A stretch of DNA of 27,809 nt from a virus. Position numbers and translations under genes: made by a program. Shown here in pieces: positions 3,583 through 27,809 of the stretch. Within the stretch, counting starts at the first letter, position 1. Each line of letters begins with the position of its first letter. The notes under the pieces were generated by a model, which worked only from the letters and a program-made list of their open reading frames with translations, made no database searches and was not told the origin of the DNA. The stretch spans positions 1-27,809 of IMG/VR virus record IMGVR_UViG_3300048434_000194. The stretch is one strand, 5' to 3'.

Positions 3583-4784
3583 TAGCCGAGGCTGCTGAAG
3601 GCAAAAATACACACTTGGAACACATTGAGGATCTAGTATTTCTTCAAGGCAAGTCTGGTGCGCAGAGTGCGCTACAGTATATTAACAGTGTGCGTGACAT
3701 GCTGGAGAATGGCGGCGACAGTGGTAACATAACTGTTAAGTGGGATGGTGCTCCTGCTATATTTGCTGGCACTGATCCAAGTGATGGTAAGTTTTTTGTT
3801 GGTACTAAAGGTGTGTTTAGCAAAACCGGCAAACTTGTAAAAAGTACTGCAGACCTTGACAAGTATGGCTATGAAGGCGGCATTCGTGAAAAACTTGCAC
3901 AGGCACTTAAACTGCTATCTGGACTGGGTATACAAGGTGTGCTACAAGGCGACATGATGTATACCAAAAGTGATTTAGAAACTGCTGACATTGATGGCGA
4001 AGAGAGTTGGGTGTTCCAACCCAACACTATTGCTTATGCTGTTCCTAAAAACAGTGAACTAGGCAAGCGTATTGCCGCAAGTCAAATGGGTATTATATTT
4101 CACACAACCTACACAGGTGATAGTGTGCCAGAAATGACTGCAAGTTTTGGTGCAGATGTAAATGAACTAAACAAGACCAGCGCAGTATGGTTTGATGATG
4201 CAACCTACAAAGACCTAAGTGGACAAGCAAGTCTAGCACAGCAAGAGAATAAACAAATACTACAAGGGCTAAATGCTGCAGCCAGCGCACTTAAAACTGC
4301 AGACTTTACAGCAGTTAGCGGCGACTATAAAGCACTGCTTATGCAGTATGTAAATGCAAGAATTAAACGTGGCGATACACAAATAGATGATGCAAAGAGT
4401 TTTGCGCAAGACTTTACACAGTGGTACAATGATTACATACAAAAAGAGATTGCAAAACTAAAGAATCAAGACCCAGCAGCACCTGCAGTAAAGAATCGCA
4501 CAGATAAAATTGATGCACAGAACAAATTTATTACTGACAACATGACAGGTATTGCCAGTGCGCTTGCAGTGTACAAAGACATTATTGCATTAAAAAATAT
4601 GCTTATAAATAAATTGAATAAAGTAGACAGTATTAAGTCACTTATCCGCACAGACACAGGCTACGAAGTAACAAACCCAGAAGGATTTGTTGCTATTGGC
4701 ACAGACAGTGGTGCAGTTAAACTAGTGGACCGCATGGAGTTTAGTAAAAACAACTTCAGTGCTGTTAAGAACTGGAGCAAGTAA
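3564..4784 (+). CDS. Putative covalent nucleotidyltransferase (ligase-like) with capsid-targeting-like leader
   Basis: The 406-residue protein belongs to a family common in T4-like marine phages and usually left as a DUF. KWDGAP (K59-W-D-G62) looks like motif I of ATP-dependent ligases and capping enzymes, where the lysine is adenylated. Then come FFVGTKGVFSK (78-88), VLQGDMMY (126-133) and near the C-terminus PEGFVAI (E373-G374) and GAVKLVDR (K386), resembling motifs IV and V of that fold. The first residues MRFREIVAEA resemble the T4 capsid-targeting sequence (MKTYQEFIAEA), whose cleavage by the head protease follows a V/I-x-E pattern. If both readings hold, this is a ligase-like enzyme packaged in the head. 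The enzyme assignment is inference from short motifs. It ends with TAATG overlap onto the next gene. Confidence 0.7.
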   Translation: MRFREIVAEAAEGKNTHLEHIEDLVFLQGKSGAQSALQYINSVRDMLENGGDSGNITVKWDGAPAIFAGTDPSDGKFFVGTKGVFSKTGKLVKSTADLDKYGYEGGIREKLAQALKLLSGLGIQGVLQGDMMYTKSDLETADIDGEESWVFQPNTIAYAVPKNSELGKRIAASQMGIIFHTTYTGDSVPEMTASFGADVNELNKTSAVWFDDATYKDLSGQASLAQQENKQILQGLNAAASALKTADFTAVSGDYKALLMQYVNARIKRGDTQIDDAKSFAQDFTQWYNDYIQKEIAKLKNQDPAAPAVKNRTDKIDAQNKFITDNMTGIASALAVYKDIIALKNMLINKLNKVDSIKSLIRTDTGYEVTNPEGFVAIGTDSGAVKLVDRMEFSKNNFSAVKNWSK

Positions 4785-16846: not shown

Positions 16847-17968
16847 ATGGCAGTATTAAACACAGGTAAACACAATCACACAGAGAAGATGGCATTCTTT
16901 GACGGCGAACTAGGCATGCAGCGTTATGATACGCTAAAGTATCGTCAGTTTGATAAACTAACTGACAAGCAGTTAGGATTCTTTTGGCGTCCTGAAGAAG
17001 TGGATATCCTTAAAGACAGCAAAGACTTTAAAGAACTTACTAGTCACGAGCGTCATGTGTTTACTAGTAATCTCAAGCGACAGATCTTGCTTGACAGTGT
17101 ACAAGGTCGCGCGCCAGCAGAAGCATTTAATCCTATTACAAGTTTACCAGAACTTGAGAACTGGATTACTACCTGGACATTCAGTGAAACAATTCACAGT
17201 CGCAGTTACACACATATTATCCGTAACGTGTACAGTGACCCTAGTATTATCTTTGACGAGATGATGGATATCAAAGAGATTGTAGATTGTGCAGATAGTA
17301 TTACAGAACTGTATGATGAACTAATTGAAAAGTCAATGTACTACAATTTGTTAGGCACAGGCACACATACAGTAAATGGTAAGAAAATTAAAATTGACAT
17401 GTATGAACTAAAGACGCTACTTTACAAAACATTAATGAGTGTAAACATTCTCGAGGGTGTGCGTTTTTATGTATCATTTGCTTGCAGTTGGGCATTTGCT
17501 GAACTTAAGAAGATGGAAGGCAATGCTAAGATTATCAAGTTTATTGCCCGTGATGAAAATGTACACTTGGGTAGTACACAACAACTACTTAAGATACTGC
17601 CCAAAGATGATCCAGACTTTGCAAAGATTGCAGAAGAAACACGCGAAGAGTGCGTACAAATGTTTGTAGATGCAGTGGATCAAGAAAAAGAATGGGCAGA
17701 GTATTTGTTTGCTGATGGCAGTATGATTGGTCTAAACAAGCAACTACTTGATGGATACATTGAATGGATTGCACACAAGCGCATGCTTGCAGTAGGACTA
17801 AAATCACCTTACACAGTTCCACAGGCAAATCCACTACCATGGACTGCTAAATGGATTGCAGGCGGCGATGTGCAAGTTGCACCTCAAGAAACAGAAATAT
17901 CGAGCTACATTATAGGTGGCACAAAACAAGATGTCGAAAAAGATACATTCGCAGGATTCAGTCTGTAA
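16847..17968 (+). CDS. nrdB: Class I ribonucleotide reductase, beta subunit
   Basis: The 373-residue protein carries the diiron-tyrosyl radical site. D83 (LLDS), E114, H117 and Y121 (SETIHSRSY), E203 (LEGVRFY) and E237/H240 (RDENVHLG) match the E. coli ligands and radical tyrosine one residue earlier each, so it should be a tyrosyl-radical enzyme. The C-terminal FAGFSL is the type of tail that docks on NrdA. It starts 12 bases after nrdA and its 3' end overlaps the radical SAM gene by 38 bases in another frame. It has no obvious defects. Confidence 0.97.
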   Translation: MAVLNTGKHNHTEKMAFFDGELGMQRYDTLKYRQFDKLTDKQLGFFWRPEEVDILKDSKDFKELTSHERHVFTSNLKRQILLDSVQGRAPAEAFNPITSLPELENWITTWTFSETIHSRSYTHIIRNVYSDPSIIFDEMMDIKEIVDCADSITELYDELIEKSMYYNLLGTGTHTVNGKKIKIDMYELKTLLYKTLMSVNILEGVRFYVSFACSWAFAELKKMEGNAKIIKFIARDENVHLGSTQQLLKILPKDDPDFAKIAEETREECVQMFVDAVDQEKEWAEYLFADGSMIGLNKQLLDGYIEWIAHKRMLAVGLKSPYTVPQANPLPWTAKWIAGGDVQVAPQETEISSYIIGGTKQDVEKDTFAGFSL

Positions 17969-19109
17969 GCACTATTGCAGTAGTCCTTTTATTTCAACAA
18001 GGCAAACAGCATGGGACAAAATAAGTCCCTGTGCTTTTGGCCCTATTGAAGTTCAGGTAGATGCAAACATGCCACAGTCAGAAAGATGGCATCATCCTGA
18101 ACTAAATGCATTGCGTGAAAAATTTAGTGCAGGGCTTCGTCCAACGGAATGCAAACGATGCTGGGACGAAGAAGATGCAGGTGCACAGAGTCTTAGACTG
18201 CGTACCAATGCACAGTACGGCACTGATCATCCTAATTGGAAGCAAGGACCCAAGGAACTTGTTATTAAAACAACTAATGTGTGTAACCTAGCATGCAGAA
18301 CATGTGGCGGCTGGGATACTAGTTTTTATTGGCCTGAAGGCGCACACTATGAAGAAATCTATGGCGCTACAGGCAACGATTTTATACAAGTCCGTGATAA
18401 AGTTTATCATAATAGCAATAGTTATAAGCTCAGTGATTTAGTAAATTTAGAAAAGATAAGTTTTTTTGGCGGAGAGCCACTGCTGGATAAAAAGCATGCA
18501 GTGCTATTAGAGAAGATAGTGGCAGCAGACAAAGCCAAAGACACAACACTTTTTTATAGTACAAACGGGCAGCAAACAGGAAAGCACTATGAAAAATTAT
18601 GGAGTAAATTCAAACGTGTTGAAATATTCTTTAGTATTGATGGCATAGAAGAGCAATTTGAGTATTTGAGATGGCCTGGCAACTGGGCAAAGACTGTGAA
18701 AAATATAGATTGGTTTTTGGATTTGCCAAACAGATACCCTGACGTTGATTGGTATTTTCAAGGAACACAATGCGTAAGTCTTATCAATATTGCAGACTAT
18801 CAAAAAACAGCAAAATGGTTACGAAAAAAACTTAACACTGTACATTTTAATATTGTAGATCATCCTAACCATTATAGAATGACAAACCTTCCTGACTTTT
18901 TAAAGGCAAAAATTGTAGATACAATAGAAGATAGTGAAATTAAAAACTATCTTACTATAGAATCTGCTGATATAACAGAACTACAAAAAATGATAGTATG
19001 GACTAAGAGACAGGATATATTTAGAAACCAGGACTATGCCACTGCATTTCCAAATACATATGAATTACTTAAACCTTATTGGAGTATGATTGACAACCTG
19101 CATGAATAG
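17931..19109 (+). CDS. Radical SAM protein with twitch-type C-terminus
   Basis: 392 residues from the ATG at 17931, chosen for AGGTGG 11 bases upstream; a GTG at 17916 is possible. The cluster motif is CNLACRTC (C118, C122, C125). An N-terminal Cys region (SVCKHYC, SPC, then CKRCWDEED) matches the pre-motif region of the twitch radical SAM proteins frequent in marine phages. GGEPLL and STNG follow, then FSIDGIEEQF. The protein would generate a 5'-deoxyadenosyl radical; the substrate, perhaps a peptide, tRNA or nucleotide, is unknown. The position after nrdB and before glutaredoxin, with overlap on both sides, is striking. It is a paralogue of the truncated gene at 1-545. Confidence 0.88.
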   Translation: MSKKIHSQDSVCKHYCSSPFISTRQTAWDKISPCAFGPIEVQVDANMPQSERWHHPELNALREKFSAGLRPTECKRCWDEEDAGAQSLRLRTNAQYGTDHPNWKQGPKELVIKTTNVCNLACRTCGGWDTSFYWPEGAHYEEIYGATGNDFIQVRDKVYHNSNSYKLSDLVNLEKISFFGGEPLLDKKHAVLLEKIVAADKAKDTTLFYSTNGQQTGKHYEKLWSKFKRVEIFFSIDGIEEQFEYLRWPGNWAKTVKNIDWFLDLPNRYPDVDWYFQGTQCVSLINIADYQKTAKWLRKKLNTVHFNIVDHPNHYRMTNLPDFLKAKIVDTIEDSEIKNYLTIESADITELQKMIVWTKRQDIFRNQDYATAFPNTYELLKPYWSMIDNLHE

Positions 19110-25367: not shown

Positions 25368-25856
25368 ATGCCAACATTTGTATACATGACCGCCTGTGAT
25401 GGATGTGGACATTGCGTTGATATTTGTCCAAGTGACATCATGCACATTGATCCAGTAACAAGAAGAGCAGTAAACATAGAACCAAACTTTTGTTGGGAGT
25501 GCTACAGTTGTGTAAAAGCATGTCCACAAAATGCAATTGATGATCGTGGGTACAGTGACTTTGCGCCCATGAACCACAAGGTCAGAGTATTACGGGAACC
25601 AGAAAAAGGCGTTATCAGTTGGCGGCTTAAATTTAGAGACGGCAGAGAAAAACACTTTGAAAGTCCTATCCGTACGACACCTTGGGACAGTATCAAATGT
25701 GCAAGTGAGTATGACATGCCCGAAGCGGGACTAAACGATACACAGCAACTAGCACATGAACCAGAATACTTACTAGCAGATGGCGGGTTGCGCATGATTA
25801 GTAAAAATAAGTTTGTTAAATACGAGTACACAGGAGATAAACATGGCACCGCGTAA
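25368..25856 (+). CDS. aprB: Adenylylsulfate (APS) reductase beta subunit-like ferredoxin
   Basis: The 162-residue protein starts MPTFVYMTACDGCGHCVDIC, the hallmark opening of AprB, followed by PSDIMHID, RRAVNIEPN and CWECYSCVKACPQNAID. All eight Cys ligands for two [4Fe-4S] clusters are present (C10, C13, C16, C20 and C42, C45, C48, C52), as is W43 between them, seen in known AprB. The tail and length match family members (about 150-160 residues). AprB passes electrons to the flavin of AprA, but no aprA lies in the window, so it may join host AprA or serve the oxygenase next to it. A strong AAAGGAG and sigma70 promoter precede it. It overlaps the next gene by 14 bases. Confidence 0.9.
   Translation: MPTFVYMTACDGCGHCVDICPSDIMHIDPVTRRAVNIEPNFCWECYSCVKACPQNAIDDRGYSDFAPMNHKVRVLREPEKGVISWRLKFRDGREKHFESPIRTTPWDSIKCASEYDMPEAGLNDTQQLAHEPEYLLADGGLRMISKNKFVKYEYTGDKHGTA
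25815..25823 (+). promoter_or_regulatory. Late-promoter-like box (GTTAAATAC) within aprB
   Basis: A late-type box near the 3' end of aprB, 19 bases before the ATG of the oxygenase gene, with AGGAGA between. It could allow separate late expression of the oxygenase gene. Confidence 0.4.
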
Positions 25857-26934
25857 TCATAAAAATTGGACAGCAAAACCTAAAGTAGAACACATCAGCA
25901 GTGATGCTTACAACAGTTTCTATCTATATGAACAGGAACAAGAACTGATCTTTAGTAAAGTTTGGGTGCCCATGTGTCACATCAGTGAGATGTATAACCA
26001 AGGTGACTTTCGCACAAGTCAGATTGCAGGACAGCGTGTGGTTGCATGGAACACAGGTTCTGGCGTAAAAGCATACCTTGGAGATAATATTACGAGTGTA
26101 GCAGGCAACATGGCCAGCAACGAAGCCACTGGCAAAGAACTACACTGTGAAGTTTACCATGGTGGTATGGTATGGGTAACACTAAATGAAAATCCAGATT
26201 GCAGTGTAGACGAGTGGACAGCAGGCGCATTTGATTGTATTGCAGAAGCGATAGACACAGAAGAAATGGAAGTATTCCATTATCACAAAGCAGTTATAGA
26301 TACAAATTATAAATTGTGGCATGACACAAACAGTGAATTCTACCATGATTTTATGCATTATTTTAATAGAGTGAGTGGATTTAATGACGAATATTTCGCT
26401 AGAAAAAATATTCCTTTTGATAACGGTCATGTTAACGTTAGTAGTTTTACTGTTAATTACGAAGAGTATGACGGATTTGAAGATCGCGGGGAACTATCTT
26501 TTCCCAATCTGCCGCCCAACCAGTGGTACATGGTTGACCTATTCCCAGGATTCAATTTTAACCTCCGTGGGAGTGCATATCGTAGTGACTCAGTGACACC
26601 ACTTGGACCAAACAAAGTTTTAATCGAGTTCCGTGGTTACGGACTACGCAAAGACACACCAGAGGAAAGACAAACACGCATAAAGCATCACAATAGTATA
26701 TGGGGACCTTTCGGCAGAAACTTGCACGAAGACCTTATTGGTGTTGCTGGTCAAGGTACTACAATGCGTGAGGGTACAGAATCAAGGAATATACTGCACG
26801 GCAGACATGAAAATTCGACAATACACGACGAAGTTGGCATGCGTCACTACTATGCAGAGTGGGGCAACTTCCTAGGAGTTGATCCTGCAAATCCACTACA
26901 AGGACAACTTCAAGATGTTAGTAAGGCTGCGTAA
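25843..26934 (+). CDS. Ring-hydroxylating-oxygenase alpha-like protein lacking Rieske ligands
   Basis: 363 residues from the ATG at 25843, chosen for AGGAGA just upstream. The start IFSKVWVPMCHISEM and RVVAWNTGSGVKAYLGDN resemble the Rieske oxygenase alpha N-terminus, but the CxH and CxxH cluster motifs are missing; only CEVYHGGMVWVTL (102-114) remains, with Cys-x3-His spacing. The catalytic part has NYKLWHDTNSEFYHDFMHYF, where H168 and H172 suit the iron site, and NLHEDLIG gives D297 as third ligand. Family members keep H-x4-H, so the site is altered by one residue. If active it may take electrons from AprB or another donor. Substrate unknown. Likely co-transcribed with aprB. Confidence 0.75.
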   Translation: MAPRNHKNWTAKPKVEHISSDAYNSFYLYEQEQELIFSKVWVPMCHISEMYNQGDFRTSQIAGQRVVAWNTGSGVKAYLGDNITSVAGNMASNEATGKELHCEVYHGGMVWVTLNENPDCSVDEWTAGAFDCIAEAIDTEEMEVFHYHKAVIDTNYKLWHDTNSEFYHDFMHYFNRVSGFNDEYFARKNIPFDNGHVNVSSFTVNYEEYDGFEDRGELSFPNLPPNQWYMVDLFPGFNFNLRGSAYRSDSVTPLGPNKVLIEFRGYGLRKDTPEERQTRIKHHNSIWGPFGRNLHEDLIGVAGQGTTMREGTESRNILHGRHENSTIHDEVGMRHYYAEWGNFLGVDPANPLQGQLQDVSKAA

Positions 26935-27235: not shown

Positions 27236-27340
27236 TGGCTTTGGGGGGAGGATTCGAACCTCCACGCTTAAATACATTGCAACACATATCTAAACAGACC
27301 GTAAACAGCGGCCCTCGTCTACCTATTCCGACACCCCAAA
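27236..27340 (-). tRNA. tRNA with anticodon GUU (Asn-like) and a long variable arm
   Basis: All cloverleaf arms can be drawn. The acceptor is TTTGGGG/CCCCAAA, the D arm is TCG-GAATAGGTAGA-CGA, and the anticodon stem GGCCG/CGGTC closes the loop CTGTTTA with GTT at 27304-27306. The T arm is GGAGG-TTCGAAT-CCTCC, with discriminator G and encoded CCA. U1-A72, G73 and the CUGUU loop are as in bacterial tRNA-Asn. The variable region is 33 nt, with arms TTTAGATATGTG and CAATGTATTTAA pairing at 11 of 12 positions (3 G-U). Normal tRNA-Asn has a short variable loop; long arms belong to Leu, Ser and Tyr tRNAs, and the D arm looks Leu-like. It lies 8 bases after the synthetase-like gene. Confidence 0.85.
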
Positions 27341-27348
27341 CTGGTTGA

Positions 27349-27809
27349 TTAAGCGGCTATTGCAACCTCTTGCTTTTTATCCATTGCCGCTATCATTCTT
27401 GTCAAACCAATACCGCCGCCCACTCTTGGGAAGAAGTCATGCTTTAAAAATTCTTCTAGTTCTGCTTGTACACGCTCTTTGGTAAACAGTTCAAATAATA
27501 GATTACTGTAAGCACCATCTGTGATAGTATGGAATGTATCCCTCATTTGATCTACATCACAACTGCGCTCTGCACTGCCTATGGTTTCCATGCCACCCAG
27601 TATGACATCAATCTTTCTACTAGTGCCATTGGCGTTACGGCTCATGTTCCAGAATGGTGATGTCATTTCAGGAAAGTCTGTGATCATTGTTGCTGTAAAA
27701 TCTTCATACATCTTTATTTCATGTTCTGCTTCTATTTCAGTCATAGGATCTAGTCCATAATGTTTTTGCCATTCAGAGTATGGTTTAACAACTATATCAC
27801 CAAATCCGC
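27349..27809 (-). CDS. Class II aminoacyl-tRNA synthetase core protein, AsnRS/AsnA-like (5' end outside window)
   Basis: The 152 visible residues are the C-terminal part; the frame is open to the window edge, upstream of the ATG at 27744. The order GFGDIVVKPYSEW, then ATMITDFPEMTSPFWNMSRN, IDVILGGMETIGSAERS and RVGGGIGLTRMIAAM matches the C-terminal catalytic region of class IIb Asp/Asn/Lys synthetases. The GIGLTRM segment is motif 3 with the ATP-binding Arg, and the IGSAERS segment parallels the GGS-R region. The GGGIG spacing is also like asparagine synthetase A, so it may form Asn-tRNA or free asparagine. The tRNA with anticodon GUU directly downstream in the same direction suggests a dedicated pair. 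Tail ends AIAA. Confidence 0.8.
   Translation of the reverse strand, partial: GFGDIVVKPYSEWQKHYGLDPMTEIEAEHEIKMYEDFTATMITDFPEMTSPFWNMSRNANGTSRKIDVILGGMETIGSAERSCDVDQMRDTFHTITDGAYSNLLFELFTKERVQAELEEFLKHDFFPRVGGGIGLTRMIAAMDKKQEVAIAA

Follow-up and report, generated by a model that had tools for sequence, protein, structure and literature searches.

The class II aminoacyl-tRNA synthetases have metabolic paralogues, AsnA/AS-AR, EpmA/PoxA and HisZ, that consist of the catalytic core only and work outside translation, and we know of none that is accompanied by a tRNA gene or resides in a pyrimidine operon. A tRNA gene dedicated to metabolism has been described in Staphylococcus aureus, in which a non-proteinogenic tRNA-Gly serves the cell wall and escapes EF-Tu through changed positions (PMC9976931). 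For pyrimidines, the canonical pathway comprises CarAB, PyrB, PyrC, PyrD, PyrE and PyrF, and a picocyanobacterial asnB-pyrB2-pydC cluster has been suggested for alternative synthesis (PMC10119275). In cyanophages, a 'tRNA ligase' (T4-GC194 of P-SSM2 and P-SSM7; PHROG phrog_29758) has entered the literature by name only, and the available part of its source (PMC3037559) remarks on neither its pairing with a tRNA gene nor the variable arm of that tRNA. No known system tying a tRNA gene to pyrimidine synthesis was found in the open-licence literature searched.

Here we analysed a viral DNA of 27,809 nucleotides (IMG/VR record IMGVR_UViG_3300048434_000194; hereafter, the window), at the right end of which a tRNA-Asn gene adjoins a synthetase-like gene of the T4-GC194 family, as the same tRNA-Asn does in the cyanophages. 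The enzyme shares the core fold, the motif 2 and motif 3 arginines and the Asn-type pocket positions of asparaginyl- and aspartyl-tRNA synthetases (AsnRS and AspRS; class IIb, PF00152), and it is core-only like the metabolic paralogues. In contrast to AsnRS and AspRS, it occurs with pyrimidine (pyr) genes, and it scores far below the models of AsnA/AS-AR and EpmA. The phage tRNA differs from the staphylococcal tRNA-Gly, which is class I, carries another amino acid, has no synthetase-like gene linked to it and serves the cell wall instead of nucleotides. The module proposed below would share the late genes pyrD, pyrE and pyrF with the canonical pathway, whereas CarB and PyrB are absent from most enzyme-bearing genomes and the enzyme would replace the entry steps; its gene set is different from the asnB-pyrB2-pydC cluster.

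The tRNA occupies positions 27236-27340 of the minus strand (5' end at 27340) and is 105 nt long with its encoded CCA. The initial annotation had described a tRNA with anticodon GUU, U1-A72, G73, a Leu-like D arm and a paired 33-nt variable arm, and the sequence and a covariance model bear out this description. The acceptor stem is UUUGGGG/CCCCAAA, the D stem has 3 bp with GG in the D loop, the anticodon stem is GGCCG/CGGUC and the T arm is GGAGG-UUCGAAU-CCUCC. The anticodon (27304-27306) lies in the loop CUGUUUA, in which position 37 is U instead of the A37 (the t6A site) usual in bacterial tRNA-Asn; the variable arm (27264-27296) forms a 13-bp hairpin with a 6-nt loop, and the discriminator G73 is followed directly by CCA (27236-27239). 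The tRNA thus has GUU and G73 where a tRNA-Leu has a Leu anticodon and A73, yet its D and variable arms are Leu-like. The covariance model, built from relatives that include one identical copy, scored it at 103.5 bits (E 1.1e-24) with zero non-standard pairs, whereas ARAGORN made no call in the window; Rfam at its gathering threshold gave no match for the tRNA. All helices are intact, and 128 distinct homologues rule out an assembly quirk or a decayed tRNA.

The enzyme gene ends 8 nt (27341-27348) before the tRNA on the same strand, as had been noted, and the window holds its C-terminal 152 codons (27349-27807, minus strand), the 5' part lying past the window end. The complete protein, found in a relative (L002) that is 100% identical to the fragment over the shared part, has 282 amino acids. 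It matches PF00152 (tRNA synthetase class II D, K, N; E=2.9e-10 for the fragment and 1.8e-16 at full length), and its profile reaches class IIb AsnRS/AspRS in the PDB. An AlphaFold2 model of the full protein, a check suggested at the outset, was built without the cyanophage rows (pLDDT 92.4, pTM 0.90) and has a class IIb AsnRS-like fold, the nearest solved structure being Pyrococcus horikoshii AsnRS (1x54; E 3e-16), with about 18% identity to AsnRS/AspRS structures in structural alignments. The catalytic core spans the protein nearly end to end, and the N-terminal OB-fold anticodon-binding domain is absent. R88 and R267 of motifs 2 and 3, together with R211, E68 and E106, are invariant across phage and bacterial members, and the motif 1 proline is replaced by Gln (Q32) in all. 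By alignment only, the pocket is of the Asn type: QTGQMWLE resembles QSSQLYLE of AsnRS and not QSPQLYKQ of AspRS, FEFE resembles VEAE and not LDVE, L67/E68 and E106 are as in AsnRS, and R211 is kept. The curated NCBIfam models for AsnRS (TIGR00457; 26.2 bits against a cut-off of 342.6), asparagine synthetase A/AS-AR (PRK06462; 20.9 against 389) and ND-AspRS all score the enzyme at less than one-tenth of their cut-offs, indicating that it represents a family of its own.

Several other genes of the window are of note. A ring-hydroxylating dioxygenase alpha subunit (25813-26934; PF00848) and a ferredoxin-like protein with an APS-reductase beta-subunit domain (25368-25856; PF12139) are unusual metabolic genes for a phage, and their relatives adjoin the pair in two further loci (L005 and L209). 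The window also encodes a DNA polymerase III alpha-like protein of only 565 amino acids (525-2222) and a radical SAM protein (17916-19109), to which an open frame at the left end (3-545) is possibly related.

The pair is carried by hundreds of marine phages. A protein search of IMG/VR with the enzyme returned 227 viral stretches, and a profile search with the family at least 575. A GUU tRNA lay 4-161 nt downstream of the enzyme gene in 75 of the first 80 loci, the spacer usually being 4-9 nt. Over 173 distinct viral loci, 170 had a long-arm GUU tRNA beside the enzyme gene (165 parsed automatically, all GUU, and five recognised by eye, three of them with C33 or G33 and two with an irregular T stem), confirming the conservation that the initial annotation had named as a check. 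The bacterial tRNA-Asn identity set (GUU, U1-A72 and G73) is present in all 128 distinct tRNAs, CCA is encoded in 103, and the T and D loops are standard; the class I shape of bacterial tRNA-Asn, with its 4-5 nt variable loop, is replaced by a paired variable arm of 12-39 nt. The linkage is equally strict from the side of the tRNA. A tRNA-only pattern search gave 118 copies among the matches listed, in 110 of which the enzyme gene preceded the tRNA by 7-248 nt in the same orientation, the remaining eight lying about 130 nt or less from a contig end; among these matches, therefore, every tRNA with sufficient upstream sequence (110/110) had the enzyme gene within 250 nt. Leu-type class II control tRNAs, each with at least 300 nt upstream, had it in 0 of 115 cases among the matches listed, which rules out chance proximity. 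These pattern counts are samples, and some contigs are near-copies of one another.

Both cultured cyanophages, P-SSM7 and P-SSM2, have the pair, and its tRNA is the sole tRNA of P-SSM2 (PMC3037559). GenBank places this tRNA-Asn (PSSM2_199; NC_006883.2) at 164094-164179, about 2 kb off; its true place is directly after PSSM2_198 (4327-4414 of our locus L083, or about 162083-162171 of the record). In a few loci the tRNA has C33 or G33, an irregular T stem or an internal deletion (L175, L204, L173, L203, L337 and L089), possibly as steps of further drift or decay. Two phage lineages (L023/L037 and L061) keep the enzyme without the tRNA; when their whole contigs were searched with the tRNA pattern and with covariance models, the tRNAs that turned up were all for Leu, Arg, Thr, Trp, Asp or Glu. 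Despite the missing tRNA, the enzyme is under purifying selection (dN/dS 0.05 between L023 and L037). Two huge phages (L084, LR756501; L085, LR756508) have distant members, 44-49% identical, with no tRNA adjoining, and an ordinary class I tRNA-Asn lies elsewhere in LR756508. About 20 positions differ between tRNA-linked and tRNA-free enzymes, none of them catalytic, so they identify no tRNA-binding surface; both groups are acidic, and comparison of their net charges gave no sign of a strong or new RNA-binding surface.

The variable arm and position 37 set the phage tRNA apart. All 37 distinct variable arms form a hairpin with a stem of 3 to 13 bp (for instance GAC/GTC, GCG/CGC, GGTA/TACC or GATT/AATC), and compensatory changes occur among the relatives. 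The mean pairing score was 7.3, against 3.5 in 200 shuffles whose maximum was 4.3; since pairing is far above that of the shuffles, the arm is under structural selection. Of the 128 distinct phage GUU tRNAs, 111 (87%) have U or C at position 37 and 17 have A, whereas only seven of 1077 other distinct viral tRNAs from the fetched loci have a non-purine there (1070 purine) and class I tRNA-Asn has A37 in 37 of 37. In a few of the phage tRNAs, U33 is also replaced by C33 or G33. With purine 37 missing in so many variants, the tRNA looks, from its sequence, poorly suited to decoding, and we consider it probably a mainly non-decoding molecule; the state of position 37 also hints that it may be kept from EF-Tu and the ribosome. 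Since the anticodon is invariant and the enzyme lacks an anticodon domain, another reader of the anticodon is implied, either the ribosome or a host synthetase. Bacterial AsnRS and AspRS use GUU and G73 as determinants, the amidotransferase reads U1-A72 on Asp-tRNA-Asn, and in yeast t6A37 acts as an antideterminant that wards off AspRS (PMC9976931). The loss of A37 with retention of GUU, G73 and U1-A72 would fit charging by host AspRS/GatCAB, or by AsnRS, better than decoding. Codon reassignment was rejected on the basis of NrdA, in which AAY codons line up with Asn, also within the active-site motif SNLCCE.

A scan of bacterial genomes yielded 125 relatives of the enzyme. The true bacterial relatives are 50-62% identical to the phage enzyme, and the long-arm GUU tRNA was absent from their genomes; the one hit with the tRNA, a Methylophilaceae MAG contig, is probably a phage. 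Among 67 bacterial loci examined, genes of the pyrE/pyrF type (OPRT/OMP decarboxylase) adjoined the enzyme gene in 18 and pyrD in 14, the pyr-linked loci belonging to Bacteroidota, Rickettsiales, Pasteurella, Rhodospirillaceae and Myxococcota. Within 38 enzyme-bearing genomes (G009-G046), CarB was missing from 34 and PyrB from 30, PyrC was often missing too, and PyrD was found in 21, compared with the presence of CarB, PyrB and PyrD in all 14 control genomes. The 38 are mostly unfinished MAGs, the small ones incomplete, and several have 4-7 Mb; four have CarB, and several have PyrB or PyrC. The Pasteurella genome is a complete chromosome and has no CarB and only a weak PyrB match. CarB/PyrB-poor genomes with the enzyme in pyrD/E/F clusters include those of L139, L098, L104, L111 and L140. 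In some Patescibacteria (L103, 634-2931, and L130), the enzyme gene stands with pyrE, a cytosine-deaminase-like amidohydrolase gene (PRK06886) and an argininosuccinate-lyase-like gene, a combination that may represent a variant of the pathway. In the family tree, which was rooted at the midpoint and has some weak forks, the phage enzymes linked to the tRNA fall within the tRNA-free bacterial family, near the Pasteurella/Rhodospirillaceae/Midichloriaceae pyr-operon branch, and the enzyme was therefore most likely tRNA-free before it gained the tRNA in phages.

Divergent PyrD and PyrE homologues of this same branch adjoin the enzyme in phages. The gene orders are pyrD-enzyme-tRNA-pyrE (L491 and L499), thyX-enzyme-tRNA-pyrF-pyrD (L524; thyX named by eye from the protein, without a profile search), enzyme-tRNA-pyrF-pyrD (L525) and pyrD-enzyme-tRNA (among L505-L510). 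Overall, pyr genes were found in 23 of 262 viral enzyme/tRNA loci and in none of 119 control loci. The window, its 316-kb relative, P-SSM2 and P-SSM7 have no pyrD, pyrE or pyrF, and 26 of the 28 viral records searched have no pyr genes; as most pair-bearing phages are of this kind, host PyrD, PyrE and PyrF would have to finish the pathway. Separately, at least 44 viral contigs (L490-L533) encode a short divergent PyrD, 32 of them with no synthetase-like gene in the fetched stretch.

Because the bacterial relatives adjoin pyrD, pyrE and pyrF in CarB/PyrB-poor genomes and phage pyr operons contain the pair, this gene association makes it very probable that the enzyme, or the pair, is involved in pyrimidine metabolism. 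Genomes devoid of CarB and PyrB must obtain dihydroorotate in some other way, and the enzyme is the sole unexplained member of the pyr clusters; we therefore propose it as the source. The atomic composition of L-Asn plus CO2 minus H2O equals that of dihydroorotate, from which we deduce the reaction Asn + CO2 -> dihydroorotate, a proposal with about an even chance of being right. The family would then open the pathway, doing the work of carbamoyl-phosphate synthetase and aspartate carbamoyltransferase: being of class II and having an Asn pocket, the enzyme could adenylate a carbamate on the alpha-amine of asparagine with ATP, the side-chain amide would close the ring, and PyrD, PyrE and PyrF of host or phage would convert dihydroorotate to UMP. 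As for the tRNA, host AspRS or AsnRS would read its GUU and G73, host GatCAB could read U1-A72, and the Asn would be transferred to the phage enzyme, the variable arm serving as a handle or as a bar to other uses; this hand-over is conceivable but rather doubtful. Our preferred explanation, in which the pair is a module feeding pyrimidine synthesis during infection, the enzyme makes dihydroorotate from Asn and a largely non-decoding tRNA supplies asparaginyl groups, is tentative as a whole, somewhat short of an even chance, with the hand-over step taken loosely. In its strictest form, a one-step tRNA-dependent route from Asn and CO2 to dihydroorotate that replaces CarAB, PyrB and PyrC and employs a tRNA outside protein synthesis, it is unlikely; Asn would there be delivered as Asn-tRNA in phages and as free Asn or ordinary Asn-tRNA in bacteria. 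What weakens the pyrimidine module most is the use of the enzyme by bacteria and by two phage lineages that lack the tRNA, which indicates that the enzyme does not strictly depend on the phage tRNA.

The initial annotation had raised the possibility of an orthogonal pair. As a translation system, this would have the core enzyme attach Asn to the phage tRNA by recognising its variable arm, with no reading of the anticodon; the tRNA would then serve AAY codons and so evade charging by the host or host defences that cut tRNAs. Class II synthetases face the variable-arm side of the tRNA, and the loss of the anticodon domain with the gain of the arm would be a neat exchange. The obligate pairing, the AsnRS-like fold and pocket, the invariant GUU, the mostly encoded CCA and the standard T and D loops also suit such a pair, as does AAY still meaning Asn in phage NrdA (Asn occupies 20 of the 34 positions that are Asn in E. 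coli); phage tRNAs, moreover, are able to counter tRNA-cutting defences (PMC11555353). The conserved association of a synthetase-core gene with a class II-shaped, Asn-identity tRNA has held up, but its reading as an orthogonal translation pair is not supported as stated, because the enzyme has no anticodon domain, purine 37 is lacking and the enzyme family and the tRNA occur in pyr operons. The relaxed position 37, the occasional loss of U33 and the persistence of the enzyme without the tRNA also speak against decoding by this pair, which we regard as unlikely, if a serious contender. Alternatively, the enzyme might be an ammonia-dependent, AsnA/AS-AR-like asparagine synthetase that, with an ordinary extra decoding tRNA, raises the supply of Asn-tRNA. 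AS-AR shows that a core-only class IIb enzyme can be of this type (PMC9437257), and there is weak similarity to 'asparagine synthetase A' models, but the score falls far short of the cut-off, and the pyrD/E/F clustering in genomes without CarB and PyrB, the long variable arm and the odd position 37 would go unexplained, making this improbable.

Of similarly low probability is a regulatory or structural role, in which tRNA-Asn, charged or uncharged, would be bound by the enzyme, sense Asn and switch an Asn-consuming pyrimidine enzyme. A synthetase-like regulator has a precedent in HisZ (PMC9437257), and such a role would fit the linkage, the tRNA inside operons, the enzyme without tRNA and the relaxed position 37. 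Against it, the enzyme has kept its catalytic motifs, and regulation alone does not explain the invariance of U1-A72 and G73. The long arm and G73 are also the identity elements of SerRS, and A73 -> G73 makes tRNA-Leu a Ser acceptor (PMC7609411, PMC9976931), so that host SerRS might charge the tRNA with Ser and AAY be partly read as Ser. This is very improbable, as AAY codons align with Asn in conserved proteins and the invariant U1-A72 and GUU would be needless. Equally hard to credit is a tRNA that has no function, whether a passenger, a chimera or a gene in decay. Mismatches or deletions do affect the tRNAs of a few relatives (L089, L203 and L337) and ARAGORN missed several, but the identity bases are invariant in all 128 distinct tRNAs, the variable arms show compensatory changes and, among the pattern matches listed, the tRNA never occurs without the enzyme gene.

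Taken together, a tRNA, a synthetase-like enzyme and pyrimidine genes form a widespread association that is unprecedented in the searchable literature; the open-licence literature searched describes neither the enzyme-tRNA pair nor such a pyrimidine enzyme. Were the orthogonal translation pair correct, it would be a naturally occurring and widespread pair in which synthetase and tRNA recognise each other by a new logic, and genetic code engineering could make use of it; either reading is directly testable in the cultured phages P-SSM2 and P-SSM7. The bacterial enzyme is, apart from the phage, a candidate new entry enzyme for de novo pyrimidine synthesis. If the pyrimidine module is real, it would provide such an entry for bacteria that seemingly have none (Aureispira, Pasteurella atlantica, Rickettsiales and some Patescibacteria), and the phage tRNA would have moved from the genetic code into metabolism. 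It would also give abundant marine phages a way round the regulated first steps of UMP synthesis, whose repression early in infection is on record for at least one host (PMC10986495).
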